Part shown: positions 5,022 to 64,000 of the stretch, piece after piece | Layout: each line of letters starts with the position of its first letter | How positions within the stretch are numbered: the first letter of the stretch is position 1 | Assembly: GCF_035083965.1 (NCBI RefSeq) | Contig: NC_089740.1 | Span: 15,843,552-15,907,551, forward strand | Reading direction: 5' to 3' | DNA: 64,000 nt | From: Branchiostoma lanceolatum | Taxonomy: Eukaryota > Chordata > Leptocardii > Amphioxiformes > Branchiostomatidae | Position numbers and translations under genes: made by a program | Notes under the pieces: generated by a model | Seen by the model: only the letters and a program-made list of their open reading frames with translations | Told to the model about the DNA's origin: nothing | Database searches by the model: none

Positions 5022-8000
5022 ATGGGTGACGTGGAACGGCGTGAGGAAAGTGGTGAGGACGAAAGGAGGGATCCGGAGACTTCCGAGTCGACCCGAGCTG
5101 ACCCGGACGTGTCGGGGGACAAGAGCGGGCCTGATGACAACACTTCAGACCAGGACGGTTCTGGCCGGAGAGATGATCGAGGGGAGGGCACCCCGGGCCA
5201 CGATGGGCCGGTCAGAACTGACCCAGCTCAAAATGAGCAAAGGGAAACTGACCCAGGTCAGAGTGAGCAAGGCCAAACTGACCCAGGTCAGAGTGAGCAA
5301 GGCCAAAGTGACCCAGGTCAGAGTGCACAAGGTGAAACTGACCCATGTCAGAGTGCACAAGACCAAAGCAGCCCTGCAGGGAAGGCTCTGCCTGTGTCTG
5401 TCGTTGACTGTGAAACCTTGGAGAGTTCTCGGGAGTGCCAGCTGGGGAAAGCTGAGGAGATTCAGGAGCAGCAAAGCCAGGAGGGACAAGGTGAGGCATT
5501 ACTGGGTGCTCCACCGGACGTGATGCCAAGCTTAGCTGCAAGTCAATCTGCAAGTTCAGCTGCAAGTCAGGCTGGAGCCCCTCCTATGGGAAGTTCTGAT
5601 GTCCTTTCCCCCACCGCAAACCCAGTCTTACCAGAACTGTCTGCAGTGTCAGATCAAACCAGTCAGGAGCCACGACCAGCCCTGCCGGGTCCCTCCTCAC
5701 AAGGAACCGCCCAAAAACCTGCCGGTTTGCAGGAAGAAGGTTGGAGCGGCAATCTAGTCTTAGAACCGTTTTCTCAGAAGCTGCTTGCTTCAATAGAGGA
5801 AAAGTACAATGAAAAGTTACGTTGTAAAGCTGAACAGAGGATTAATACATTTGAGAAGGAGCTGAAAGGCCTAGGAGAGCTGAATGTCTTGAGCCTTTGG
5901 CAGAAAAACGACCGGGCGGTAGAGCAGCTGGCAGCTCGTCTGAATCTGCCTCCAGGGTCCGTCTGGAAACTCCGGATGTTCTGCAGGGTTGTGATGAAAT
6001 GCCTGCCCAGGAAAAAAGTCATGGACCAACAGAAATTGCGGCGGTTGTGCTGGCAAGTCCTGCACGACAAGTTCGGACAGAGCGTCTCAGAGCTGGTAGA
6101 AGCCATGGTAGGCCTAATGGTGGGAGATGTCACAAAACAGACTGGAAACACAGTCGCACCAGAACCACGCAGAGTTCCAGATGAAGCCAGTCGGGAGTCA
6201 CAACCATCCTCGCAAGGAACCTCCCAACACTCTGCTGGGGAGCAGCTTAAAGACAAGACAGGCACTTTAGTCTTCAAACCATTTTGTAAGAAGCTTCTTG
6301 CATTTGTGAGGAAAAACTACCCAGAAGCAACAGAGTTGGCTGTTGAAAATCGAGTCAACACGTTTGAAAAAGAGATGCAGGGAGTCTCTGAGTGTTTCTG
6401 GCAAAACGTCGAGAACAACGACGACATGATCAATCAGCTCTCTGCGCGGCTGAGTCTACCCCACAGGGACATGTGGAAACTCAAACTGTTACGGCGAGTC
6501 GTGATGTGCCACCTACCCAGAAAAACTTTTACCATGCGGGGGCAAGTCCACCGTCTTTGTCGCAGTGTCCTGATGGGAGAAGGGCCCAGATTTAGAGCGA
6601 ACATCCTACAGCTGATCAAGGTCATCACAATGCGAATGCCGAGAGGTACTAAGCCAGGGCCAGAAGGAGGGTTTGTAGATCAAAATAAACTTGCCAGAAT
6701 AGAGTCAAGACTAGCGAGAGGTCTGATTGTGAACCCGAGAGACATGAAGAAGTATAAGCAGTCAAAGGAGCAGTTAGCGAAACAGGACAGAGAAATCCAG
6801 CGGCAAAGGATGGAGGGAAAAAATGTTGCATCACGGGACGTTCAACCGGGTAAAGCAGCAAGTTGCACCTTAAGTCAGGCAGTTACCTCAGCTACAAGTT
6901 CGGCAACACGTTCAAGTGTAAGTCAAGCAGCAAGTTCAGCTGCAGCGCCTCCTGTTGAGAGTTTTGATCATGACATCCCCTCCTCGACTGACACAGTGTT
7001 AACAGCTCAAGCTGCAGATCAAACAGGTAAGGATGCAAGATTCATTTTCATTTCATACTTTATGTACCGGCCACGGACAACATATTGCCATCAGGGCGTC
7101 TTTCACTTTGCCCTGTAGGCATACATAAACAAAACATTAAAATGTATTATTGAAATCTCATAGTAGAACACTCAATTATATTGAATTCACAAAGGTTTAA
7201 ATCATATCAACTTGTGCTTATATTGCAAAGGAATATTGCACATTAAGAGTGGTAAAATGGATGCACGATACTGCACTTTATATTACACTTGTTTACAATA
7301 ATCCAAACAATCATATATAAATGTTGATGAAGGTTTAAGACATCCAGGTAATAAGATACGCCAAAAGTAGTTATGCAAGCTTTTACTGAAATCCAAACTT
7401 TTATCCTGTTGCTTGAGTAACTGATTTTGGCGAATCATAATATACAAATACACTAAATCCACAAATAACTTCAATAAATGTGTTCACAGGGTGCGAATCA
7501 TGTTTCGTTTCACAGGCAAGGAGTCACAGCCTTCCCAGTCCGCTCCTTCCTCACAAGAATCTGCCGGGGAACCGATGAAGCACAGCTTAACGCCGTTCGC
7601 TCAGAAGCTGCTCGCGTTGATGATGAAAAGTTACCCGAATAGGAACAAGGAGAAATTCGAGCGCCGGATCACCAAGTTTGAAGCGGAGCTGGGGGGAAAC
7701 CGAGAGTTTGTCTGGCTGAGCTTTCAGAACAACGACCCGATGATCGAACAGTTGGCAACGCGGCTAGATCTCCCTCCCGGGGCCGTGTGGAAACTCAGGC
7801 TCTTACGCCGGGTTGTGAAGAGCTGCTTGCCGAAACAATCTCCCACAAATTTGGAGGCAGCCCGGCATATCTGTGTGCAAATCCTGCAGGAGGAGTTTAG
7901 ACAGAACATATCGGAAATGGTAGAAGTCATGTTTGTCACGATGACGAGAAACGCCGCACAGGAAAGTGGAAACCCAGTCGCACCAGAACCAGGCAGAGCG

Positions 8001-11000
8001 TCAGATCAAACCAGCCAGGAGCCACAACCACCCCTGCCTGGTCCCTCCTCACAAGGATCCGCCCAAGGTCAGAAAAAACTTAAGAATCTACAGTCTAAAA
8101 GGGCGAGAGGTTGGCGAATGACTGGCAGGGAGCTGAAGATCTTGCAGGTTTTAGAGCAGGGAGGCACAGAATGTGAGGAATGGCAGGAGGACAGGAGGCC
8201 AAGTCCCAGAGGAAAGCAGGAGGGATTCTTCCCGGGCCAGAGGAAACTTTGGCATCTTCAGTCCAAAAGGGCGGAAGGCCGGTCTATGTCTGCCAGGGAG
8301 CTTAAGACGTTAGAGGTTTTAGAGCGGCAGCAGAGAGTTTGGAAACTGGATCTGCAGGAGAAGGGGCGGATGAGTGCTGTAGGCAAGCAGCAGGGAGGAA
8401 CGGAGTGTCCGAGTTTCGATCCACAGGAGGACAGAAGGCAGAGTGTCACGGGCAGGAAGCGGAGAAATCTTCGGCGTCTACAGCACAAAAGGGCAAAAGG
8501 CGTGCCTATGTCTGCCATGGAGCTAAAGATGTTAGAGGTTTTAGAGCGGAGGCAGAGAAATTCTGAACGAGTGTCGCAAACAAAGGAGCAGCAAAGTACT
8601 CGGCAAGGAAAGAAGCAGAAGGAGTGGAGAGAGAAGAATCGAGGGAGCAAGGAGGACCGATACGTTCCCGGCAAAAGCAGAGTTTTGAAGCCAACACAGA
8701 GAATGTCTAGAAGTCCGCCTGCCGAGCGGGTCAGGGGTCAGCAGCGGAGGACGAGAGACCGAGAGGAGCATCAGCCGCGTGAGGCAGGACCAGGTTCGGC
8801 GCGGCGACTGGCGGTTGATGTTGAGGCAGAACCGGGTTCGGCGCGGAGACTGGCGGTTGACGCTGAGAAGCTGCTGCTGCAGAAGGAGTGGGCGCGGCTG
8901 GCGGGGGAGCGGAGGGTGCTGGACTACGAGCTGGCGCTGCGGGAAGCCGCCGTGCAGGACCACATCTTCCAGATGCAGCACGAGATCTACTCCCACAAGG
9001 TCACACAGAAGGTCACGCAGGTCACCCAGCTCTCTAAGCGCCTCCTCCTGGAGGCTGGTCACCGTGGCAACCACGATGAGCAGCAGGCGTCAGCCAATCA
9101 GGACGTGGATTACAGGTGTGTTCAGGTGATGTCAGAGAGCAGCAGCTTCAAGCGTTTCCATGGAAACCCTCGCAATGATGACAAGAGCCCACTCCGTCAT
9201 GACCATGATCGTTTCCATGGAGATCCTCACCATGACGCCAGGAACCCACTCTGGCATGATCAGGAGCGTTTCCATGGAGATCCTCACCATGACGACAGGG
9301 GCCCACTCCGGCATGACCAAGAGCGTTTCCATGGAGATCCTCTCCATGACGACAGGGGCCCACTCCGGCATGACCAAGAGCGTTTCCATGGAGATCCTCA
9401 CCATGACGACAGGGGCCCACTCCGGCATGACCAAGAGCGTTTCCATGGAGATCCTCTCCATGACGACAGGGGCCCACTCCGGCATGACCAAGAGCGTTTC
9501 CATGGAGATCCTCACCATGACGACAGGGGCCCACTCTGGCATGACCAAGAGCGTTTCCATGGAGATCCTCACCATGACGACAGTCGCTTGACTAGTCCTG
9601 ACGACATGGCCCCGAGTGATTGGTCGCCTGAAGAAGATGCGAGGGAGCAGCGGGATGAGGAGGAACGTTCCTGGCCTGGAGCTGAGGACCGGCGGGGGAG
9701 AGGCCGCCACTGGGAGAGGGGAGAGGAGGATGAGTTCCTTCATGAGCGGTACAGGAGAGAAACTTCAGCGGACCGACACGGAGAGCCGCACAGACATGAG
9801 GAGGCAGCAGGGAGTTATACAAGAGATCGGCCCTATTCTGCACCCAGGGCACCGGCTTATGATAACTCCGCCTTCCCAGCCGAACCTCCACCAAACAGAC
9901 GGGATGCTCAGTACAACAGGAGCGACAGAAGGGAGGAGCAGACTCTCCAACAAACCGGTCAGGTCAGGAACCTGCCAAGGGACCAAAGTCCACCCTATGC
10001 CCTGGACGAATTTGGTCAGCCAATTGACCACCTACCACATGAAGAGTATGGGAGTCCACCAGCCAGAACAGGTATCCATGGTAACCATGACCATAGTAAC
10101 CGTCATCTCCAAAGCTGCAACCAAATGCATGGGAACAAGATGTGGAAAGAACCAGACAAGTTGAACAGAAGTTGTAAAGATCAACATAAAGATCTCAGAT
10201 CCAGCAGCCAGATTCGGGGTGGAAATCACAGATTCAGCAGTCAGAGCTTTGATAGAGATCAAAGATCCGGATCCAGCAGTGGAAAAGGGGATCACAGATC
10301 CCGCAGTGAACGTCAGGGTAGAAATAACAGATCCAGCCATCGGAGTCAGGGTAGAGATCGCAGATCCAGTCAGGGTTACGATCGTGGACAATCACGGGAT
10401 CACTCTCGAAACAGTTCTCAATCCAGTCAAAACAACATCCGAAGAAAACCACCACAAACAGATGGAAGCAGCCAAAACAGTGCAAAACGAAAGAGAGGCC
10501 ACAGTCCCAGTCCCCGAAGCAGCAAAAAGGGGCCCGGAGAGAGGAGACGTCCTGAGCGTCCCCCTAAACAGCAGCAGACTGAAAACACACAGACGTGGCC
10601 CCCACAAGCCCCTGGTGCAGCGGCCCAGCTAACCAACCAGGCCAAGACGTCTCAGGACTTGGGCCAAATCCATAAAAAACGTCCCACGCGATTTGACCCC
10701 AAATTCCCAACCAACAGAGCCCAAGACATGGGCCAAATCCCAACCGGCTGGTCCAAAAAGTCTCAGCCTACTGGCCTAATCCGTACCAGCCAGGTTACCA
10801 AGCCTGTGAACCTGGGCCTAGTCCCAAACCCCTGGGTTATGCCGCCTCAGAACGTGGGCCAAACCCCAAACACCCAGGCCATGCCGTCTCAGAACATGGG
10901 TCAAATCCCAAACACCCAGACCATACAGTCTCAGAACATGGGTCAAATCCCAAACACCCAGACAATACTGTCTCAGAACATGGGCCAAATCCCAAACCCC

Positions 11001-13865
11001 TGGGTTATGCCGCCTCAGAACATGGGCCAAATCCCAAACACCCAGCCCATACTGTCTCAGAACATGGGTCAAATCCCAAACATCCAGCCCATACAGTCTC
11101 AGAACATGGGCCAAATTCCAAACCCCTGGGTTATGCCGTCTCAGGACTTGGGCCAAATCCCCAACACCCAGCCCATACGGTCTCAGAACATGGGTCAAAT
11201 CCCAAACATCCGGCCCATACAATCTCAGAACATGGGCCAAATCCCAAACATCCAGTCCATACAGTCTCAGAACATGGGTCAAACCCCAAACCCCTGGGCC
11301 ATGCCGTCTCAGAACATAGGCCAAATCCCAAACACCCAGCCCATACAGTCTCAGAACATGGGCCAAATCCCAAACATCCAGTCCATGCAGTCTCAGAATC
11401 TAGGCCAAACCCAAAACCCCCGGGCCATGGAATCTCAGTGCTTGCGTCAAACCCCAACCAACAGAGCCACAAAATCCCAAGAGATGAGCCGAATCCCTGT
11501 CCGCCGCCCCATGCAGCCCCAGGACTTCGGCCCTGCCAACAGAGCCACTACAACCCAAGACATGGGCCAAAGCGGCTCACCATCTTTTTGGCAGTACGAC
11601 AGTCTGGAAGGAGACTTCTTAGACTTTGGGAAGGAAAGTGACGGCTCCTTTCATCGCAGCATCCAGCAGACTGCCCTTCCAACCGCTCCTGCCAGGGGGC
11701 TCTCTTCTGTACCTGCCACAGGAGCCACGAGCAGTGTTCCCTGTGGAGATGTGCCCCCCTCCCCAGCAGGAAGGGAAACTCCGGGGACCCAGGCAGGGCA
11801 GGCGGCAGGCCAGCCCCCCATGGTGTTTCCTCCCGGCATGAGCTTCACTGAAAAGCTGCTTGCCGTGTCGGAAACCTTCGGCCCCGTCACCAAGAAAGAA
11901 GTGGAGAAGAGGATCCCCAAGTTTGAGTCAGAGGTGAAGAAGCTGACATTAAACAAAAGGAAGAACTACGACGACCTAATGGTGGACGATCTGGGCGATC
12001 GCGTCCCGGAGCAACATCGCTGGAAGCTCAAGTTGCTCCGCAGGATCATTGTGGGCGTTCTGCCCAGGATAACCAGGGAGGAAAAGGAGAGGGTCTCGTG
12101 GCTGTGTCGCCAGCTGGTCCCGCAAGAGGGCGTGGAACTTACCGAGGAGGTGTTCAGAGCGCTGACCTTCCCGAAAAGGGTGACGAACCCGCTCCTGAAG
12201 CCGCTGGTGATGACCGGGGTGGGGCCGGGCATGGAGGCGGGGAGGGCCGCGGGGAGGGCCGCGGGGAGGAGGGCCTGGGAGGACCGGGACCTGGTCAGGA
12301 CCTACCTGCAGCAGCAGGGCGCGGCCGCCACGGAGGAGGCGGTGCAGGCCGTCCTGCAGAACGAGCAGCTGCTACACGACGCCAGGAGCAGCATGGCGCT
12401 CCGGCACCTGGTCTGGGAAGGGGCGTCACGGGGCACATGCCAAGGCGCAGAGCAGGGCACATACCAGGGCGCAGAGCAGGGCACACACCAGGACGCAGAG
12501 CAGGGCACATACCAGGGCACACTGCAGGGCACAGAGAAGGGTGTAAAGCAGGGCGTAAAACAATTCACACTGCAGAAAACACAGCAGGGCACAAGTGCAG
12601 CAGCAAGCTCAGCTGTAAGTCAGGCTTTGCCCTCTGGAGAAAATCCAGCTTCGCGCTCAAACCAGGAACGACAGTCCCAGGCCCCAGCTGGCCCATCCTC
12701 AGAAAGACCTAAATTTGCTGGACCTTTCTGGAAGCCGAAAGAAGAAAGGGGCGGCACTCTGATCTTGACTCCGTATCCGCAGAAGATTGTCGCCTTTGTG
12801 GAGAAGCACTATGGAGAAAAGAGGAAGAATCAGGTTGTCGACAGGATCAACACGTTTGAGGAGGAACAGAAGGGAAACCCGGACTTCGTCTGGAGACACC
12901 ATCAGAACAACGACACGGTGATCGAGCAGCTGGCCTCGCGGCTGACCCTGCCTCCCGGGTCGGTGTGGAAACTCCGGCTGTTACGCAGGGTCGCGGTGGA
13001 ATGCCTGCCCAAGAAGACCGTGGTCGCGCGGGAGAGGATCCTGGACATGTGCCAGCACGTCCTGTTCGACGAAGGTGTCGAGGTCACCGAGGACGTTTTC
13101 AAAGTCATCATCGCCATAGTATCGAGAAGGTTTCGGGAATCGTCGGCAAGGGCGACAGGAAACCCGACACCGTTTCCGGTTAACCTTCGGGAATCGTCGG
13201 CAATGGCGACTAGACACCCGACACCGTTTCCGGAGAACCTTCGGGAGTCGTCGGCAATGACAACTGGAAATCCGACACCGTTTGCGGAGAACCTTCGGGA
13301 ACCATCGGTTATGACGTCGAGACACCCGACACCGTTTTCGGAGAACCTTCGGGAATCATCGGCAATGACGTCTAGACACCCGACACCGTTTGCGGAGAAC
13401 CTTCGGGAATCTTCGTCAATGGCGACTGGAAACCCGACACCCTTTTCGGAGAGAGCAATGCCCAGGACTGTACCAAGTACCTCCACAGGGGGGCAGACTG
13501 TACCAAGTATCTCCACAGGGGGGCATACTTATGTACCGAATGCCCAGAAAGTAGCGCAGACTTCGGCTGAGAACGCTGATAAACAGCAGATGGTGGTGGC
13601 CTTCCTGCTGAGCAGAGGTGTGCATGTGACTAGCGAGGCTGTGGAGGGGGTTCTTGAGAACCAACAGGCTCTCGAAAATATCGAGAGGATCTTCTGGACC
13701 CCCCTCCAGGACCGTCGCCTGGTGGAGCGGTACCTGCAGCAGGTCGGCATCCCCGTCACTCCGGAGGCCGTCAGCAAGATCATGGACAACCCCGAACTGC
13801 TGGGGAGCATCAAGAACACCCTCGGGGGCCAGGGGGGCAACCCTGGGGGCCACGGAGCCAACTGA
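5022..13865 (+). CDS. Very long repeat-rich nuclear-type protein with five copies of an unrecognised domain
   Basis: Exons 5022-7026 and 7516-13865 join in phase 1 (CAG/GTAAGG donor, TTTCACAG acceptor) to give about 2784 residues. The ATG at 5022 has a strong GCCATGG context. An acceptor-like CACTAG at 4990-4992 suggests an upstream non-coding exon. A ~120-residue domain recurs at about residues 241-365, 414-540, 689-813, 2109-2222 and 2414-2540. Its core is LPPGSVWKLRLLRRVV, preceded by an NND..IEQLA.RL helix. I do not recognise the family. Between the copies are three units of KRA-G-MSA-ELK-LEVLE type (8.07-8.57 kb), a His/Asp-rich 19-residue repeat, an Arg/Ser-rich stretch (10.2-10.4 kb), a KRKRGHSPSPRSSKK basic cluster, and a Gln/Asn/Pro 14-residue repeat. 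The C-terminus has two tandem helical motifs around VTSEAVEGVLEN, and a third copy lies near 12.3 kb. The RS-like and basic tracts suggest a nuclear, RNA- or chromatin-linked role, which is inference only. Confidence 0.8.
7027..7515 (+). other. Intron with an inverted-repeat remnant
   Basis: This is the phase-1 intron of the long repeat protein gene. At about 7319-7447 it carries a copy of a dispersed repeat also seen near 38520-38700, 49316-49445, 53885-53977 and 35465-35570. Here it lies between CGCCAAAAGTAG and a CTGATTTTGGCG arm. A second acceptor-like CACAG at 7485-7489 would break the frame, so I prefer 7515. Confidence 0.7.
9148..9590 (+). repeat. 57-base coding tandem repeat
   Basis: About eight units encode ERFHGDPHHDDRGPLRHDQ or close variants inside exon 2. 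The 57-base period keeps frame. Several later units are almost identical at DNA level, which suggests recent expansion or homogenisation. Confidence 0.95.
10820..11420 (+). repeat. 42-base coding tandem repeat
   Basis: About 14 units encode variants of NMGQIPNTQPIQSQ inside exon 2. Units alternate between forms containing NPWVMP and NTQPIQ, so there is a higher-order pattern. The translation is Gln/Asn-rich and probably disordered. Confidence 0.9.
13130..13455 (+). repeat. 54-base coding tandem repeat
   Basis: About six units encode NLRESSAMATRHPTPFSE-like 18-mers after the fifth copy of the unknown domain. Ser/Thr/Pro-rich, probably a linker. Confidence 0.9.
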
Positions 13866-15469: not shown

Positions 15470-16468
15470 TTGTCACTACTATCTAGAGTGCGGTCTTGAT
15501 AAAGTTTAAAAACCAATTGAGGTAGATTGTCACTACAATCTAGAGTGCGGTCTTGATAAAGTTTAAAAACCAGTTGAGGTAGATTGTCACTACTATCTAG
15601 ACTTTCTAGAGTGCGGTCTTGATAAAGTTTAAAAACCAGTTGAGGTAGATTGTCACTACTATCTAGAGTGCGGTCTTGATAAAGTTTAAAAACCAGTTGA
15701 GGTAGATTGTCACTACTATCTAGAGTGCGGTCTTGATAAAGTTTAAAAACCAATTGAGGTAGATTGTCACTACTATCTAGAGTGCGGTCTTGATAAAGTT
15801 TAAAAACCAGTTGAGGTAGATTGTCACTACTATCTAGAGTGCGGTCTTGATAAAGTTTAAAAACCAATTGAGGTAGATTGTCACTACTATCTAGAGTGCG
15901 GTCTTGATAAAGTTTAAAAACCAGTTGAGGTAGATTGTCACTACTATCTAGAGTGCGGTCTTGATAAAGTTTAAAAACCAGTTGAGGTAGATTGTCACTA
16001 CTATCTAGAGTGCGGTCTTGATAAAGTTTAAAAACCAGTTGAGGTAGATTGTCACTACTATCTAGAGTGCGGTCTTGATAAAGTTTAAAAACCAGTTGAG
16101 GTAGATTGTCACTACTATCTAGAGTGCGGTCTTGATAAAGTTTAAAAACCAGTTGAGGTAGATTGTCACTACTATCTAGAGTGCGGTCTTGATAAAGTTT
16201 AAAAACCAGTTGAGGTAGATTGTCACTACTATCTAGAGTGCGGTCTTGATAAAGTTTAAAAACCAGTTGAGGTAGATTGTCACTACTATCTAGAGTGCGG
16301 TCTTGATAAAGTTTAAAAACCAGTTGAGGTAGATTGTCACTACTATCTAGAGTGCGGTCTTGATAAAGTTTAAAAACCAGTTGAGGTAGATTGTCACTAC
16401 TATCTAGAGTGCGGTCTTGATAAAGTTTCAAAACCAGTTGAGGTAGATTGTCACTTCTATCTAGAGTA
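15470..16468. repeat. 57-base minisatellite, about 17 units
   Basis: Nearly identical 57-base units (GTGCGGTCTTGATAAAG core) run across 1 kb, with one 9-base insertion near 15600. Because 57 is divisible by three, the minus strand stays open and reads a 19-residue repeat (DNLPQLVFKLYQDRTLDSS) in a 426-codon frame. It lies about 370 bases beyond the stop codon of the minus-strand HypX-like gene. A TTTATT at 15130-15135 (AATAAA on the minus strand) would place the array inside that gene's 3' UTR. I treat it as non-coding. Confidence 0.9.
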
Positions 16469-16599: not shown

Positions 16600-16850
16600 A
16601 TTTTGTTCCCGCGTCATAAAAATACTGTGTTCTACGACCTTGACTTTGTGTTCTGCGACCTTGATTCTAGTGATACAGGAACTTATACTGTGTTCTGCGA
16701 CCTTGACTTTGTGTTCTGCGACCTTGACTCTAGTGATACAGGAACTTATACTGTGTTCTGCGACCTTGACTCTAGTGATACAGGAACTTATACTGTGTTC
16801 TGCGACCTTCACTTTGTGTTCTGCGACCTTGACTCTAGTGATAGACAAAC
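16600..16850. repeat. Tandem array built from the stop-codon region of the HypX-like gene
   Basis: Units of ~21 and ~42 bases repeat (GTGTTCTGCGACCTTGAC and TAGTGATACAGGAACTTA). On the minus strand each longer unit repeats the context of the real stop codon (TATCACTAGAGTCAAGG), so the array seems to have arisen from the 3' edge of the coding sequence. Confidence 0.8.
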
Positions 16851-19800
16851 TTCCGCCTCTTCTCGTGGTACTCCGCGTCGTTGAAGCAGTGGCGCATGCG
16901 CTCCAGCTCCTCGTGACGGTGCTCGTCCAGGATGGACCAGAGTGATGACGTCATGGCCTGCTTCCTCCGCAGAATCTCGCGAGAGTTGGCCCGCACGCGC
17001 AGACACTTCAGGTGGATCAGCGCGTTCAGCTCCTTCGCGTTGTCCCCGATCACATCGTCCAGCATGCCTGGGGCGGAGATGCATGACTTTAACACATGTA
17101 CACCCGACCCACCTAAACCCAGACACACCCATGATATCCCCCAGACCCACCATCCATGCCATTTCTGTACCGCTGGCCCACCTAGCTTATGACATACTCA
17201 TGATCATGCAGTAGACACACCCATTTCCCTAAACCACCCATGTCACTAACCCACCCATGTTCCCGTGGCCCCAACCCACGCATGTCCCTAGCCCACGGTC
17301 CCAAGCCCACAGATGTCCCAAACCCACCCATGTCCCTGTCCCACCCTTGTGTCCCTAACTTCCCCATGTCCCAAACCTACCCATGTCCCAAACGCACCCA
17401 TGTCCCTAACCCACACGTTTCCCTAACGCACCCATGTCCCTAACCCACCCATGTCCTTAACCCACCCATGTCCCTAACCCACCCATGTCCCGAGCCTCCG
17501 TGGCCAGCACCGGCTGCAGCCGCGTGGTCAGTTCCTCCGCCATGGAGGTTCCCACCCTCTGCGGCAGGGAGTAGGTCCAGTACTCGGACCCGAAAAGCGC
17601 CATCTTGCGGTAGTGCGGGTTCAGCACCACGCCTGCGTGGCTCACGACCTGCGGAAAACATGGATGCCATCAGTCAGCTGACTGCAAGCTTTACTGTGTT
17701 TCCACTTTTTGTACTGTAGTTTTGCGAGGTCACGGCTTTCAGTGTATCGTGATCGAAGACAGAATAGACGATGTTGTTAGAGGGAAAAGATGAAAAGGAG
17801 AAGGAAGAAATTAAAAGGAGTGACGTGTAAATAATCCAAGACAAGTTTCTCTCACTAACAAACTAGTAGGCAATCTTCTGGTCGTGACAGGGAAGAGTGT
17901 GGTACATGGTGTTGAGGAATGAGAGAGATGGGGAAAGGAGGAGATATGAGAGAGGGGATGGAGGGAACTTTAGAGGAAAGGTTCTGTCGTGTTGGTTCCT
18001 GGGCTGCAGAGATGAAAGAGAGCAGAGGCAGAGATGAGAGAGAGGAGGCGGAGATGAGAGAGAGGAGGCGGAGATGAGGATGAGAGAGAGGAGGAGGATA
18101 TGGTCTGTCCTATCCGTACCTCGTCTGCGGCGAGCGCCATCATGGCCCCTCCTGCTCCGGCGTTCCCCTGCAGCGCCGCGACCGTCACCTTACTGCGCAT
18201 GCGGAATATCGCCTTCACCACGTCATCGATGGCGGTGATGTTAGCCCAGGATTCGGCGACGGCGCATTCGGCGTTCTCGATGACGTTCAGGTGGATGCCG
18301 TTGCTGAAGAAGTTATGCCTAAATATGGTAAAAATCAGCATGTTATGCCTAAATATGGTAAACATAATTCTAGGCCTAAATATGGTAAAAATCGACGTGT
18401 TATGCCTGAATATGGTAAACATCAACATACTATGCCTAAATATGGTAAACATCAGCATGTCACGCCTAAAAATAGTAAACACCATCATGTTACTAGCTTG
18501 TCTGGTCAGGTTGATAAGTTAGTGAGGTTAATGAGTTAGTAAAGTTAATAAGCTTGCGAATTCGACAGATTTAGCGCTCAACGGCCCAAGAGCGCGACCA
18601 TTGCCTACAGAACCCGCTCCAGCCTCCGGCACTGCTCCGTAAGTTGATGAGTTAGTGACGTTGATGAGTTAGTGAAGTTGATGAGTTAACGAGTTAAAGC
18701 TCACCCGCCCATCAAGACGACCACAGAGCAGTCCGGGTCCTGCTCCACCGCCCACAGAACCCGCTCCAGCCGCCGGCACTGCTCCGTAAGTTAATGAGTT
18801 AGTTACGTTGATAAGTTAATGAGTTAGTAAGGTTAATGATGTTGATAAGTCAGTGAAGTGGATGAGTTAACGAGGTAAAGCTCACCCGCCCATCAAGGCG
18901 ACCACAGAGCAGTCCGGGTCCTGCTCCACCGCCCACAGAACCCGCTCCAGCCGCCGGCACTGGTCCGTAAGTTAATGAGTTAGTAAGGTTAATGATGTTG
19001 ATAAGTTAGTGAAGCTGATGAGTTAAAGCTCACCCGCCCATCAAGGCGACCACAGAGCAGTCCGGGTCCTGCTCCACCGCCCACAGAGCCCGCTCCAGCC
19101 TCCGGCACTGCTCCGTAAGTTAATAAGTTAGTTACGTTGATAAGTTAATGAGTTGATGAGTTAGTGAAGCTGATGATTAAAGCTCACCCTCCCATCAAGG
19201 CGACCACAGAGCAGTCCGGGTCCTGCTCCACCGCCCACAGAACCCGCTCCAGCCGCCGGCACTGATCCGTGCTCATCGCGCCGTTGTAGAAGTCGAAGTG
19301 CACGTAACAGACGCCGTCTTGGCGCGTCGTCCAAACGTCTTGGAACGTCTTGGGCCTGGCGCCGTAAGGAAGGGGCCCGCAGGGGGTGATGGGAAGGAGT
19401 GTGACGTCAGCTGAAGGCAGGACGGACGTGGCGGGAAGCTTCAGACTGGTCTTCTTTGGCGATGCCTGCGGGGGGGGGGGGGGCGAGGGGGTTTATAGTG
19501 GAAGCATCCTCATTAGATAGCTTTAAACAATGCATGCAGTTAGATATGCGAAGGTTTATAGACGTGACAGGTCGTTCGGTGTAATATAACCAGCTGCTGC
19601 CGCGCCGCGTGCCTGCGAAGCTAGTGTGTTACGCCGAATGGCGGTTATACCGACTATACAGATACAGATACAGCGTTACTGAAAGCACGTTAAGAACCAC
19701 GTGCACACTCACCAATAAGGATTGATGATTATGAGGATCTGCATGGGGGGATGCTGGAAACGTATAACGATAACTTCAGGAAGGCGGCAACGCGACGCTT

Positions 19801-22239
19801 AATGGTATGTAAATTGACTTGTTCTTGCACCTGCGAACACCGAAACACCTGGGCGTGCCGTTGTGACCGAAGCGCAAGCTGGCGTTCTACTGTGCGATAC
19901 ACAGAATCTGTCGAGTTCGAGATAACAAATAACGTGCTTCTTAGAGTGAAAGCGACGCTTCACGAATAATTTACGGACAACGCTTAACGTGGAATTAGAG
20001 CGGGCCGGCCGGCTACAACTGACGGCGAATTAAGATAGCTCGCTACGCCTCGCGGAAAACTGCATGCAGATTCCAGACTTGTGACGTCACCTTTAGATGG
20101 GAAATCCAGACAGCGTCTTCTTCTCCACAGGCCACCAGGACAGCGCCGTTCCTCTTGGCGATGACGTCACCAGGGATGACGTCATGCGCCTGCTCCTTCT
20201 TCACGCGCCGCACCACTTCAGCGTCGCCTTCCACGCATGCGCCGAACAGCACGACCTCGTGCTGCTGCAGGTGACCTTTGACATTTGACAGACAACAGTC
20301 TTGGTTATCAACAACAAAGGGAAAGTGATCTCTAACCAGTTTATCTCGTTGAAGGTAGTGAAAGTTAAGACCTTAACATTTTGTGCATGTTACAACAACA
20401 ATCCAGCCTGTTGGCTGCCATGCCGGCCACCGTTATGCATTTTGTATTTGTGAAATAAACCATCCATATACATAGGCTGAAAATAGTCAAATCTAGCCGA
20501 CCTTTCTCGGGCAGACGGAGCCCGCCCAGCGCACCCGGCTGGGAGTCGCAGGCCCGCACGGCCCGCGCCACGTCCTCCGCCGCCCGCGCCCAGTCCACCT
20601 GCCGGTCTGCCGCCGTCAGCTTCCGCTTCAGCTCGCCGCGCACCTGCAACCGCAAACGACTCGTCATCATGACGTCATGCGTACGAGAACGCATCATCTC
20701 TCGTCCATATACTGTACTAGTTTAAAGTGTAAAAAAACGATAATTTTTGTGCCCAAAATTTACATTTTGCTAATAGTTTCTACCCAAACTAGAGCAAGGA
20801 CAGCATTGCACTACTAGATAACGAAAAAGCGCCATGATTCGTTCTCAGTCTGAGGTTCGACCGCCTCTCACATTTCCCGCCGGCTGCTAGGATTTAGTGC
20901 AAACGTCTAATTTGTGCACAGACTAAAGCAGGGTCAAGGCGTCTTCTGTCTCTAAAGGAATCAAGTCCACTCGAAGACCACAACATGGTGTCAAAAGTAG
21001 GATCGATCGACCCTGTGGCAATGCTGCCCCAGCTGATAAAAGTCCAAGAACCGTACCTCGGGGTCCGTGAATAGTTGCATCAGGCTGGTATGGCACAGAA
21101 TTAAAAGATTCTTTGTACACAAACAAGCGTCCGTGCAATTCTGACTGGTTCACAATGCACTGCAGCTATAGGTGTCGCTGCTAACAGATGCGATCCCGCT
21201 GGTTAAGTACTAGTACTTGTACATATACAGAGATAGCTATTCCGTACCTCGGGATGCGAGTAGTTCAGCGCGGTGGGGGGCACGCCTCGTTCCCAGGCTT
21301 CTACGGCCCCCAGCACGGCCTGCAGCGCAGCCTGGGCCACCTCCTTCCCGTACAGGCTGGACTTGGTCGCATGGCGGTTCACAGGAAATCTGCAGGTCGC
21401 CCAGATGTCGCCCGCGTCCATCTCATCGTCAGCCTGCAGTACCGTCACTCCCCACTCGGTGGCGCCCTCCTGCAATGTAAACATTGCAACAAAACACCAT
21501 TGATGAAAATAGCTAGCCTCTACAAGGCCCCCGTCCTATCGCTGGGAAAATAGTAGAAATCGGCCGAGGTACTCCGCTATACAGGGAAGCTCCATTATCG
21601 ATGGACGGAGAGTTCATTAGTTTTACACTGTTTGGTATTTTAAATACTCAGTTGTGTATTCACGGTAAACAAACTGTGATCTGCCTGAACAAACGTTACC
21701 TGCAGCGCCCAGTCGATGGAGGAGGGTCCCCGGTCCCCCGGGATGCCCGGATGTACGATGAGGACGGGTGGGGCGGGGTTATTGTCCAGGCCGACCGGGA
21801 CTCGGGCGGGGTTGTTGTAGAGCCCGGGCGGGACCCGGCGGGTTAGGAACGGGCACAGCACCAGGTCCGGCCGGTCCGCCTCCACCGCCCGCGTCATCTC
21901 CTCGCCACGTGCGTCCTCGTGCACAGTCACGTGATGGCCGCGTGACGTCAGCTCCAGGTACAGCCGCTGCGACAGCCCGTTGAAGCCGTTGCACAGGAAG
22001 GTGACCTTCAGCGGTTTTCCCGCCCTTTTCCTCGGACCGGGGGCGGCGGCAAAGTCCGCCCACGGGAGGGGGGAGAACTCCGAGGGCTCATGGGAAGGCA
22101 AGTTATACAGGGATGCCTGTCGCAGTGGCGGCTGGGAAGACGATCCATGCTGCGATGACGTTGTAGTTGCGCGAGTGGTGGCCTTCTGCAGGGACATCAC
22201 GGCCCGCCAGGTGGCGCGGGTGGTGACGTTTCTTAACAT
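16835..22239 (-). CDS. hypX: HypX/HoxX-like protein: formyltransferase fused to enoyl-CoA-hydratase fold, likely mitochondrial
   Basis: Eight minus-strand exons: 22239-21700, 21469-21248, 20643-20502, 20275-20091, 19465-19188, 18318-18120, 17648-17483 and 17067-16835. All phases agree, giving 654 residues. The 20275 acceptor was chosen by phase. The start ATG lies five bases after a strong TTTTCTCTCAG acceptor, so a 5' UTR exon exists upstream. Residues 1-75 are rich in Arg/Thr/Ser and poor in acids at the very N-terminus, as in a mitochondrial presequence. The formyltransferase half starts at VTFLCNGFNGLSQRLYLEL and contains HPGIPGDRGPSSIDWA (catalytic-type His) and DDEMDAGDIW (catalytic-type Asp). 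The C-terminal half has LMGGHNFFSNGIHLN, the oxyanion-hole segment GNAGAGGAMMALAADE, then NPHY and GSEYWTY. In bacteria HypX makes CO from formyl-tetrahydrofolate via formyl-CoA for [NiFe]-hydrogenase. An animal substrate and role are unknown. Confidence 0.9.
17100..17490. repeat. 18-base minisatellite abutting the donor of HypX-like exon 7
   Basis: Units CATGTCCCTAACCCACCC repeat with variation through the intron. On the minus strand each unit reads GACATGG followed by GTGGGTTAG, a copy of the exon end and its 5' splice site at 17483/17482. Many decoy donors therefore follow the real one. Confidence 0.85.
18313..18490. repeat. 30-base array carrying the acceptor of HypX-like exon 6
   Basis: About six units of TATGCCTAAATATGGTAAAC type. 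On the minus strand each includes ATATTTAG followed by GCATAAC or similar, i.e. copies of the 3' splice site and first exon bases at 18320/18318. Confidence 0.85.
18560..19187 (-). repeat. Four extra partial copies of HypX-like exon 5
   Basis: The last ~75 coding bases of exon 5 (19465-19188) plus its GGTGAGC donor and following intron recur at about 18580-18640, 18700-18785, 18885-18965 and 19028-19112. Three copies keep the frame for ...ALMGG-type ends. The lowest copy has an in-frame TAG and no donor. They lack an obvious strong acceptor, so use as alternative exons is possible but unproven. Confidence 0.8.
21514..21612. mobile_element. Terminal-repeat relic of the Mutator-like family
   Basis: This stretch in intron 1 of the HypX-like gene resembles the 137-base terminal repeat of the element at 30756-33211 (shared TAGCCTCTAC and AAATAGTAGAAAT-GGCCG blocks) but is diverged and has no partner end. 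Confidence 0.6.
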
Positions 22240-60448: not shown

Positions 60449-63400
60449 GCTGAGACCCATGCGCTGGAATCAGAGCAGAACTCTGCCCAGAACGATCCAC
60501 CTGAGAGGGAACCAGACGTAACCAGTCCAAACCAGTTCAGACCTGTTCCAACCCAGGATGGAACCGGTCCCAAACCGGATAGAACCAGTCCCACACCAGA
60601 CAGAACCGGTCCCAGCCAGGACGTCACCAGTCCCAACCTGAACATAACCAGTCCAAACCAGGACAAAACCGGTCCAAACCAGTTCAGAAGCGGTTCCAGC
60701 CAGTCTCAGGAGGACACAGCTGGTTCTGACTGGTCCAGCGCTGACCTGCTGCCCGTCAAGCCCTCAGGAAAGAAGCGGAAACGAGAGACGTCGACGGATT
60801 CGCGGGACAGCAGTGGGACGGGACAGAGCGACACAAGCAAGGGTGACATGAGTAAGCCGTTTTCTGTCCCCTCTTTACTAGAGCTGTGTACCTAAACAAA
60901 TTTTAGGTACAGGTACAGGTACATGGGTTAAGGTACAGGTCGGGACCTGAACCAGTACCTGAACTACTTGTTTGGAAAATGCTAGATTTTTGATAAGGAC
61001 AAAAGCATGTTTGAACTGGTGAAAACATAATTTTTGATTGTGCCAGGTATTATTTTTATGAAAACACAGATGAAAATTTGACTCCAGCCATGCAAATGTG
61101 TTTTCTGTGCTTTAAAGTGGCTTTAGAGCACTGCCACGGTAATTTCATAGTAATTTTATCTGTCAAAGTGACCATCCCCTGAGTCAGGTCCAGTACCGAT
61201 ACAGCAGGGTCAGGTATTTTGGACCTGTACCTAATTCATTGTACCAGGTACTGTATCGGTACAGCGTACTGGTACACAGCTCTACTCTTTACGTAACCAT
61301 GCCAGTAACTGTTCACTGTGACGTCACATACAGCCAGTAAACAATGATTTGATCACCTTAGAAAAGGAAATGTCAAGAGGGAATAATTTTGTTTCAAGGT
61401 GTGAGATTTAGTCATGAAAGAATGGTGTATGGTTTGCACCGATGCATATCTTTTGTGATTGAATAATGCCATTTCTGTAGAGTACAAACAGGAAATATTG
61501 CCTTGTTTCTGAATTGAATTGAAATTTCGTTTTTAGGATGTAAGGATTCCGGAGTTGCCAAAAGAATGACAAGGCAGGACGGGGAAAAAAAGTGTTTCAA
61601 ATGTTGGTCCAACCCTGACGGTTTGTTTCAGGAACCCCTGAGCTGATGGGACCCCCTCCCGCGCCACCCCCCTCCAGCCTCCCCCCTGCTGCCGATGCCC
61701 CCCCTCTGCAGAACGTCCCAGCAAAGAAACAGCAGCAGTATGCCTACATCTTTTCTACGGAGCTGGCGAACAAGGCGAGTCTTACATAACTAAAACCAGC
61801 ACACAACAAACAAACAAACAAACAAACAAACTATCAAGGTTCATAAGCTGGCGAACAAGGCGAGTTCTGTGGAGTAGAGTTTGTCACACATGAGTATAGA
61901 GGTTCATAAGCTGGCGAACAAGGCGAGTTCTGTGGAGTGTGTTGCACATGACTATAGAGGTTCAGAATCTGCTTCAAACAGCTCACAGTTTGCTGCAATA
62001 TGATCCTTTTGTTATATGATCCTTTCGTAACATGATTCCCTCTGTAACTTGATTCCCTGAATTTGATACATCTATAATCCTTTCCTTAAGTAACATGATC
62101 CTCCTGTCCCCCTAGGCAGCAGAGGCCGTACTGCAGGGGCGAGTGCAGTCCATTGTGGCGTTCCACATGGAACACGTGACACGAGCACGGATCGACCGCG
62201 TGCGTCACAGCGAACAGGTGGGTTACGTCAGCTTTATTCTGCCTTGATTTATCTATTAATTAGCTTAGAACTGAATACCCCATATATTAGTAATGTCTAG
62301 ATAATCAAATACTCCAAATTTCATATGCTGTTTCCATAGCAACAGCTGTTTCAGTTACAGTCTGTTAACCCATGGCAACAGCTGTGTCAGATGCAGTTTG
62401 GTAACCCATGGCAACAGCTGTGTCAGATGCAGTTTGGTAACCCATAGCAACAGCTGTATCAGATGCAGTTTGGTAACCCATAGCAACAGCTGTGTCAGAT
62501 GTAGTTTGGTAACCCATAGCAACAGCTGTATCAGATGCAGTTTGGTAACCCATAGCAACAGCTGTTTCAGTTACAGTCTGTTAACCCATGGCAACAGCTG
62601 TGTCAGTTACAGTCTGTTAACCCATGGCAACAGCTGTGTCAGTTACAGTCTGTAACCCATGGCAACAGCTGACAGGTGCTCTCCCCATCTCTCCCCATCT
62701 GCAGGTGCAGTCTGGTAACCCGTGGCAACAGATGCAGGCGAGCCAGCTGGGGTTCGGGTCGGACCTGGGGCTGAACCCCTCCGCAGGGGGTCCGGCGCCC
62801 CAGCTGCCGTCCAAGCCGCCCCCGCCCTACCCGGGCAGCGCCACTCTGGAGGCGGGGGGGACGGAGGGCCTGACCCCGGAGCAGCTGCGGCACCGGCAGG
62901 AGCGGCTCATGACCATCCAGCGCATGCACAAGCTGCTGTTCCCCGAGCAGGCCCAGACAGCGCCCCCTAGCGACTCTCTGGCGGCGCAGCAGCAGCTCGA
63001 CCTGGCCAGCCTGCAGGGACAGCTGCAAGGTCAGGCCCTGCAAGGTCAAGGCCAGCCGCGGCCCGGCATGCAGATTGGCCCGGCCCGACCTGTGGGCCCG
63101 GGGGGGCTCACCATGCAGCAGCCCAGCCCGGGAAACCTGCCCAACAACCAGATGATGTCACCGCATGGACTGATGACATCACAGGCAAACATGATGACAT
63201 CGCAGGGTTGGAGTGACCCTTCCCAGGGTGCACCAGCCCACAAGGCGGCCATGATGGGGCTGGGGTCGCCGGGGTCGGAGGGCATGGGGTCGCCGGGGCA
63301 GCTGGGGGAGGATCAGATGTCGGCGGCGCAGATCGAGTGGCGGCGGCTGGAAGAGAGCTTCTACCGCGAGAAACGGAAACGGATGCTGGAGCAGCAGATG

Positions 63401-64000
63401 ATGCGCGGCCAGCCCTACCCGGGACAGAGGTAACCTAACTTTCACTTTCTCACAGAGGTAACTTTCACTTTCACTTTCTTACAGCCCTCCCCTGGACAGA
63501 GGTAACACACTTTCACTTTCTTACAGCCCTACTTGGGACAGAGGTAACCCAACTTTCACTTTCACTTTCTTACAGCCCTACCTGGGACAGAGGTAATGCA
63601 AGTTTCACTTTCTTACAGCCGAACTGGGAAAAACTCCATACAAGAAACACCATTTCCAGGAAAAACTGTTTCCAGGAAAAAAAACTTGTTCAGGAAAGAA
63701 AAAATTTCCAGGGAATGCACTTTTCAGGAAAAAGGCTTTACCAGAAAATCACTTTCCAGGAAAAAACTTCTCCAATAACACACTCTCTGCTCCCCTTACA
63801 GGTACCCCGCTCCACAGCAGTTCTTACCTCAGGACTACGATGGCCCACCAGACGCCCAGGAGGCCTCGCAGACTATGCAGCCCCCGCCGCCCTACCAGGA
63901 CCTGGCGCGGTTACCGCGACAACCACGACAGCAAACCGGCTTCTCTACCTCATTTGGCGAGCCCTACGCGCTGCAGTCCCAGCCACAGGCACAGGGGGCG
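60449..64000 (+). CDS. BCL9: BCL9/legless region of the CECR2-BCL9 gene (3' end beyond window)
   Basis: Exons 60449-60851, 61632-61774, 62116-62217, 62705-63429 and 63802-64000 (open at the window end) are in phase with each other and with the CECR2-type exon ending at 60118. Features in order: Pro/Thr-rich repeat (TSPNQ, TGPK); basic GKKRKRE, like the BCL9 nuclear signal; HD1 YIFSTELANKAAEAVLQG, which in BCL9 binds the Pygopus PHD finger; HD2 LTPEQLRHRQERLMTIQRMH with LLFPEQ, the beta-catenin-binding helix; HD3 SAAQIEWRRLEESFYREKRK. BCL9 is a Wnt-pathway co-activator in the nucleus. The first exon has no in-frame ATG near its start, so it must be spliced to something upstream. The intron at 61775 starts with GC rather than GT. 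Confidence 0.9.
61840..61935 (+). repeat. Copies of the HD1 exon 3' edge with its GC donor
   Basis: AGCTGGCGAACAAGGCGAGT, the end of the exon at 61774 plus the GC donor, recurs at about 61846 and 61909 in ~60-base units. Confidence 0.85.
62340..62704 (+). repeat. ~40-base array from the 5' edge of the HD2 exon
   Basis: About eight units of CAGTCTGTTAACCCATGGCAACAGCTGTGTCAG type match the start of the real exon (GCAGTCTGGTAACCCGTGGC at 62707), again copying an exon edge into the intron. Confidence 0.9.
63430..63640 (+). repeat. Array from the 3' edge of the HD3 exon
   Basis: Three units of CCCTACCTGGGACAGAGGTAA and TTTCACTTTCTTACAG follow the real exon end at 63429, giving repeated AG/GTAA donors and TTACAG acceptors. 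A further TTTCCAGGAAAAA repeat fills 63640-63775. Confidence 0.85.

Follow-up and report, generated by a model that had tools for sequence, protein, structure and literature searches.

A 64,000-nucleotide stretch of the genome of the amphioxus Branchiostoma lanceolatum (contig NC_089740.1, positions 15,843,552 to 15,907,551; hereafter the window, numbered from its first letter) contains a complete gene for HypX, which occupies positions 16835–22239 on the minus strand. Bacterial HypX or HoxX, as characterized in Aquifex aeolicus (structure 6J0P) and Ralstonia eutropha (HoxX), is the carbon monoxide (CO) synthase of [NiFe]-hydrogenase maturation. Amphioxus is not known to have a [NiFe]-hydrogenase, and none would be expected in such a host. 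Since HypX is old and widespread among eukaryotes not known to have hydrogenase, it is well placed as a candidate for the enzyme with which some animals and brown algae make CO from folate. Judging from sequences and predicted structure, eukaryotic HypX is likely to convert 10-formyl-tetrahydrofolate (10-formyl-THF) via formyl-coenzyme A (formyl-CoA) to CO outside hydrogenase maturation, probably in mitochondria. While the family name and the amphioxus gene model are already known, the points of interest to a specialist are the eukaryotic HypX clade, the repeated fusion to FolD, hydrogenase-free bacterial HypX next to CO sensors, and the link to folate-dependent CO in animals.

Three Pfam families scored over their cut-offs in the 654-residue protein: PF00551 at residues 110–222, PF02911 at 262–369 and PF00378 at 411–651. 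Formyl_trans_N, Formyl_trans_C and a crotonase domain (ECH_1) thus follow each other in a single chain, which is the HypX/HoxX architecture. A. aeolicus HypX matched residues 74–652 with 377 bits, far above chance, while the next structure, which is not a HypX, reached 42.8 bits. With Foldseek and VIA-align employed as well, HypX itself, rather than any separate formyltransferase or hydratase, gave the best full-length likeness. The sequence, the structure model, the trees and the genomic context all favour the HypX identity proposed in an initial annotation made from the letters of the window, and all five signature segments it listed were found in the translation.

The hydrolase domain of ALDH1L1/L2 and methionyl-tRNA formyltransferase likewise have a Rossmann and OB-fold formyltransferase at the N-terminus and use 10-formyl-THF as donor. 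However, the amphioxus protein carries a crotonase domain instead of an aldehyde dehydrogenase and scores at most 42.8 bits to them. The aldehyde dehydrogenase domain of ALDH1L was not among its three Pfam matches, the NCBIfam model of methionyl-tRNA formyltransferase (TIGR00460) reached 64.2 bits, below its cut-off of 201.5, and none of the NCBIfam enoyl-CoA hydratase equivalogs reached its own cut-off among the best 25 of 53 rows. In contrast to bacterial HypX/HoxX, the amphioxus protein has a presequence-like N-terminal extension and ends in FVYH, without a TPxxLAxHR-type tail.

The catalytic residues are intact. In HypX, formyl transfer is attributed to His74, Asp80 and Asp109, decarbonylation to Tyr416 and Glu426, and contacts to the 3'-phosphate of CoA to Ser194, Gln195 and Asn306 (PMC6802093). 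The amphioxus equivalents are the triad H163, D169 and D198, the pair Y535 and E544, and S288, Q289 and N424, so that the loss of catalytic or CoA 3'-phosphate residues, a possibility raised in the initial annotation, did not appear on alignment. We compared 30 eukaryotic rows, 26 of them assigned by species name and 4 by EukProt label, and all five catalytic residues were present in every one. The triad was kept throughout the 50-row alignment (50/50), in which the decarbonylation Tyr was Thr in P0145 and P0150, both classed as bacterial without a tree.

The N-terminal extension of the amphioxus protein is Arg-rich, includes an amphipathic stretch and has no Asp or Glu among its first 25 residues. 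By this composition it is probably a mitochondrial presequence, as the Arg-rich N-terminus had already hinted. An extension could be measured in 18 of 26 eukaryotic rows and comprised at least 42 residues in 13 of these 18. The first 25 residues were free of Asp and Glu in 21/30 eukaryotic rows versus 0/11 named bacterial rows, which begin inside the domain. Peroxisomal formyl-CoA metabolism was also considered, and no clear type 1 peroxisomal targeting signal was seen at the C-termini of 31 rows inspected by eye.

Eukaryotic HypX and its fusion to FolD

HypX is common to a placozoan, cnidarians (Hydra, corals and Nematostella), lophotrochozoans, mosses, one liverwort, Chara, brown algae and other eukaryotes. 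We calculated three unrooted trees, a quick one with 138 rows, a second with 74 and a careful one with 44, in which many rows were placed by the tree alone. Named eukaryotic rows were separate from bacterial rows in all three. Support for the bacterial side of the careful tree (23 rows) was 100/99, and Branchiostoma, Trichoplax, three cnidarians, a nemertean, an annelid, a brachiopod and a bivalve formed one clade (100/96). Tardigrade and fungus-gnat rows clustered with mosses and Chara, rotifer FolD fusions sat elsewhere, nearest to bacteria, and the metagenome row P0080 stayed unplaced.

Lateral transfer followed by intron gain had been suggested as the origin of the amphioxus gene. A recent transfer into amphioxus is not supported by the trees, on which eukaryotic rows stand apart from bacteria. 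Since the gene is common to many eukaryotes, any bacterial transfer should be ancient and not into amphioxus itself; an exchange of this age between bacteria and eukaryotes is conceivable.

The Hydra and Ascophyllum proteins, used as queries, revealed chains in which HypX is followed, in N- to C-terminal order, by the methylene-THF dehydrogenase/cyclohydrolase FolD (PF00763, PF02882). Amphioxus HypX is unfused, but the HypX part of the fusions is homologous to it and, in those eukaryotic fusions that were checked, shares its catalytic residues. On the eukaryotic side they occur in brown algae (Ascophyllum and a partial row labelled Undpi1, which we take to be Undaria), in the rotifers Adineta and Rotaria (Didymodactylos in part), in Chrysoparadoxa and in other transcriptomes. 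FolD makes 10-formyl-THF, the substrate of HypX. Many further fusion rows were found, the named ones being Chloroflexota. The 13 bacterial-type fusions in the tree grouped with a Chloroflexi genome locus in a single clade, remote from the fusions of eukaryotes, which implies either two or more origins of the fusion or many losses. The Tyr/Phe-x3-Lys motif of FolD was kept in 11/11 eukaryotic-side fusions (9 by script, 2 by eye). Five of six bacterial fusions (P0156, P0158, P0191, P0198, P0222) had no Tyr-x3-Lys in the stretch examined for it, whereas in the sixth a match lay beyond the printed part. The FolD part of bacterial-type fusions is perhaps a dehydrogenase only.

Bacterial HypX, hydrogenases and MHYT genes

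HypX proteins of described function work in [NiFe]-hydrogenase maturation (PMC12134894). To score hydrogenases in genomes that encode HypX, we used matches to the [NiFe] large subunit (PF00374) over cut-off; 'negative' or 'hydrogenase-free' denotes genomes with no match over cut-off. The first set comprised 80 bacterial loci, 50 of which were hand-picked for the PF00374 test. A HypX open reading frame (ORF) was obtained for 75 of the 80; loci dropped for lack of a called ORF include L041 (negative) and L014, L021 and L050 (positive). In random genome samples, each including its centre genome, HypX occurred in 21/369, 5/348, 17/341 and 1/299. Neighbour counts refer to 95 loci with a HypX ORF, namely the 75 and all 20 of a second set, taken with wider flanks from the non-centre genomes of the samples of 348 and 341; the 21 loci of the 369-genome sample, with short flanks (about 1.5 kb), were left out of these counts.

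The large subunit was absent over cut-off from 15/50 genomes of the first set and 9/20 further genomes (24/70 in total). Bacteria with the same enzyme in such genomes include Peribacillus, Marinomonas, Lysobacter and Pseudomonas, and these proteins stand apart from the eukaryotic rows on the careful tree. Some of the negatives are metagenome-assembled genomes, but since isolates (among them Peribacillus, Marinomonas and Lysobacter) are found as well, missing data are not the sole cause of this class. Weak and split PF00374 matches suggest complex-I-like relatives, so the hydrogenase-positive class may be over-inclusive. The lines of evidence that favour the HypX identity of the amphioxus protein also support a role apart from hydrogenase, as initially proposed.

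Hydrogenase-linked bacterial HypX commonly ends in a TPxxLAxHR-like tail (or a RRxIYRRRKWE-like one in Bacteroidota). A wide tail motif was found in 30/43 hydrogenase-positive and 3/23 negative genomes and in 0/30 eukaryotic rows; because it was chosen after inspecting tails, its p-value is exploratory and the mark is a hint only. A narrow motif occurred in 24/45 hyp-adjacent loci versus 12/50 others. Among hydrogenase-free bacterial proteins, 20/23 had no tail and 12/23 had a Tyr-Glu loop (between the decarbonylation residues) one residue shorter than that of A. aeolicus. In two hydrogenase-free loci a DUF6436 protein follows HypX (L051:4801-5418 and L070:11676-12491).

Genes with an MHYT domain lay beside HypX in 9/95 loci, always on the same strand and within two genes. 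The domain stood alone in L031, L034, L080, L133 and L135, was part of an MHYT-PAS-GGDEF-EAL protein in L001 and L013 and of an MHYT-PAS-histidine kinase-receiver protein in L039, and its match was split over two ORFs in L140. Seven of the 23 loci without a hydrogenase match had such a neighbour, versus none of the 43 with a match and two of the 29 untyped ones (L034, L039; Fisher P=0.0003). Part of this contrast arises because MHYT genes are rarer genome-wide in hydrogenase-positives (5/20 versus 19/24 negatives). The position beside HypX is the stronger point: for about 31 MHYT genes in 24 hydrogenase-free genomes, and assuming 900 genes per Mb, 0.027 random pairs within two genes are expected and 7 were observed. 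These loci count as about three lineages, because five share the MHYT kind and partly the gene order. At the 16/23 hydrogenase-free loci that have no MHYT neighbour, the neighbours looked up were mixed. Among 17 short-flank loci with a HypX ORF (about 1.5 kb) no MHYT gene was found, and hypD or hypE was present in 10/17.

In CoxC, the MHYT domain is responsive to CO and depends on copper (PMC11347149). On the simplest reading, the HypX-MHYT pair would be a CO producer and its sensor, which suggests a bacterial CO-signalling module beyond carboxidotrophy and hydrogenases.

Proposed carbon monoxide synthesis and its rivals

The gene most likely encodes a functional eukaryotic HypX, for which we infer the following reaction. 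The N-terminal domain would transfer the formyl group of 10-formyl-THF to tightly bound CoA via H163, D169 and D198. Formyl-CoA would then fold over into the crotonase-fold domain at the C-terminus, in which Y535 and E544 could strip CO out and leave CoA for the next turn, with 10-formyl-THF giving THF and CO in net terms. The enzyme probably acts in mitochondria and would not serve a hydrogenase; the likely purpose is CO as a signal or gas product, disposal of surplus formyl groups, or both.

Several observations weigh against this interpretation. Between Y535 and E544 the loop has one residue fewer than in A. aeolicus, as it does in 30/30 eukaryotic rows; both lengths occur among bacteria. 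The CoA diphosphate contacts R9 and R131 of A. aeolicus are lost in amphioxus (G85 and G221); in rows classed as bacterial, the R9 position is Ser or Ala in 15/15 and R131 is Arg in 14/15. R542 falls beyond the sequence alignment; structural-alignment ranges put it on or close to H654, the final residue. The quadruple mutant R9A-Q15A-R131A-R542A kept CoA binding (PMC6802093). The 3'-phosphate contacts vary among the eukaryotic rows, with Ser in 20/30 and Thr in 9/30 at S288, Gln in 20/30 at Q289 and Asn in 29/30 at N424. Hydra isoform P0057 is almost devoid of an extension, and bivalve and brachiopod (Lingula) rows have no long one. With respect to sensing, 12/19 hydrogenase-free genomes with MHYT genes have none beside HypX. 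We know of no MHYT domains in animals, and the bacterial context is therefore not directly transferable. Furthermore, O2 competes at MHYT, and other MHYT proteins have been suggested to sense nitric oxide (PMC11347149).

Formyl-CoA might instead be hydrolysed to formate or handed on without release of CO, in which case HypX would recycle THF as a CoA-dependent deformylase of 10-formyl-THF. Many crotonase-fold enzymes hydrolyse or hydrate CoA thioesters, FolD fusions would suit any reaction that consumes 10-formyl-THF, and the shortened loop of the eukaryotic proteins points in the same direction. We nevertheless regard a deformylase as unlikely: Y535 and E544 are kept in 30/30 eukaryotic rows, and their counterparts are required for HypX function in R. 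eutropha (PMC6802093). Moreover, the short loop is found in bacterial HypX too, three of these proteins being encoded beside hyp genes, and the MHYT linkage points to CO.

CO synthesis for its own sake also has to be weighed against two readings to which we give very little credence. That the protein is a dead or moonlighting relic retained for CoA or folate binding is very unlikely. Amphioxus has several copies, one of which (P0010) is predicted to have no crotonase domain, and tandem repeats occupy introns 5 and 7, but the five catalytic residues are conserved across animals, plants and algae, and reading frame and splice sites are intact. Least probable of all is that HypX still matures a metal-carbonyl enzyme, either an unrecognised eukaryotic Fe-CO cofactor or the hydrogenase of a symbiont. 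This would agree with the described function of the family, but the gene has seven introns and resides on a 16-Mb contig, the bacterial enzyme occurs in genomes with no large-subunit match, and the hydrogenase-type tail is absent from all 30 eukaryotic rows.

More tentatively, eukaryotic HypX might be the synthase responsible for folate-dependent CO in animals and brown algae. It would be old in animals, be used where CO serves as signal or product, and fill siphonophore floats and perhaps kelp pneumatocysts; in hydrogenase-free bacteria, the same enzyme would feed MHYT CO sensors. Haem oxygenase is usually named as the CO source of animals. If our proposal is true, HypX would be a second endogenous one, driven by folate and tying one-carbon metabolism to CO, and amphioxus would be a chordate in which HypX-dependent CO synthesis can be tested. 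Siphonophore gas glands secrete CO (PMC3916360); that of Physalia makes CO, with Wittenberg 1960 cited for the source of this CO and Wittenberg et al. 1962 for folic acid derivatives in the gland (PMC6820529), and the bulbs of bull kelp are high in CO (PMC9601103). HypX is a testable candidate for the formation of gas-gland CO from folate-bound carbon and for the CO in kelp bulbs. Hahn and Copeland (1966) reportedly identified serine as the carbon source of CO and blocked its formation with the antifolate aminopterin. The main texts of a siphonophore genome paper and a siphonophore expression paper (PMC8844502, PMC13327316) mention neither carbon monoxide nor HypX, HoxX, folate or gas gland. 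Among the publications listed in literature searches, none ties HypX to eukaryotes, animal CO, siphonophores, kelp or amphioxus or deals with the FolD fusions or with hydrogenase-free bacterial HypX beside CO sensors; one match names HypX in its references only.

Gene model and other features of the window

With their boundaries adjusted to GT-AG splice sites, the eight exons joined to a coding sequence of 1965 nt with a single terminal stop. All seven introns are GT-AG, and the incoming exon phases (0,0,0,1,0,2,0,1) are compatible throughout, which confirms the initial reading of eight in-phase exons and a full-length protein. The product is residue-for-residue identical to NCBI 'hydrogenase maturation factor HoxX-like [Branchiostoma lanceolatum]' (P0001), and so the gene is already annotated under an automatic name. 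Support for transcription is limited to the agreement of this public gene model with the spliced reading.

Splicing, residue mapping and Pfam matches assign the parts of the protein to exons, all on the minus strand. Exon 1 (21700–22239) contains the start codon, the presequence-like N-terminus and the first formyltransferase (Rossmann) part with H163 and D169; its Arg-rich codons 1–46 (22102–22239), by composition a likely mitochondrial presequence, have a predicted local distance difference test score (pLDDT) below 50 in the model. The formyltransferase domain continues in exon 2 (21248–21469) with the catalytic D198 (EMDAGDIW). Exon 3 (20502–20643) opens Formyl_trans_C (OB-fold) and provides S288 and Q289, and exon 4 (20091–20275) encodes most of the remaining Formyl_trans_C region. 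The linker and the start of the crotonase-fold domain, with N424, derive from exon 5 (19188–19465), and the crotonase core (NFFSNGIHLN ... GNAGAGG) with A511 from exon 6 (18120–18318). Exon 7 (17483–17648) holds the proposed decarbonylation residues in NPHY (Y535) and GSEYWTY (E544). Exon 8 (16835–17067) encodes the C-terminal helices up to the FVYH end, which is free of the TPxxLAxHR-type tail.

Protein searches revealed further amphioxus copies, P0002 (81% identical, 657 residues), P0010 (486 residues) and P0069. P0002 and P0010 are listed on a contig equal in length to that of the gene (16,034,363 bases) and lie outside the window, in which only one HypX gene and repeated pieces of exon 5 were found. 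These pieces are located in intron 5 (18560–19187), where the last 27–28 codons of exon 5 and its splice donor are repeated in units of 148–181 bp. Near-perfect copies lie at 18704–18787, 18885–18968 and 19033–19116, none of the three directly preceded by an AG acceptor, and a decayed copy is found near 18560–18640. In intron 7 (17218–17491) the donor of exon 7 is embedded in a 17-bp minisatellite; CATGG|GTGGGT repeats at 17487, 17470, 17453, 17332 and 17259 present several decoy donors.

Located 3' of the gene is a 57-bp tandem array (15470–16467; 17.4 copies, 97% matches) within a 429-codon frame on the minus strand. On the plus strand, a frame of 2146 codons is open from stop to stop at 7425–13862. 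A further open frame at 62621–63430 includes a stretch that seems to resemble the BCL9 HD2 helix.
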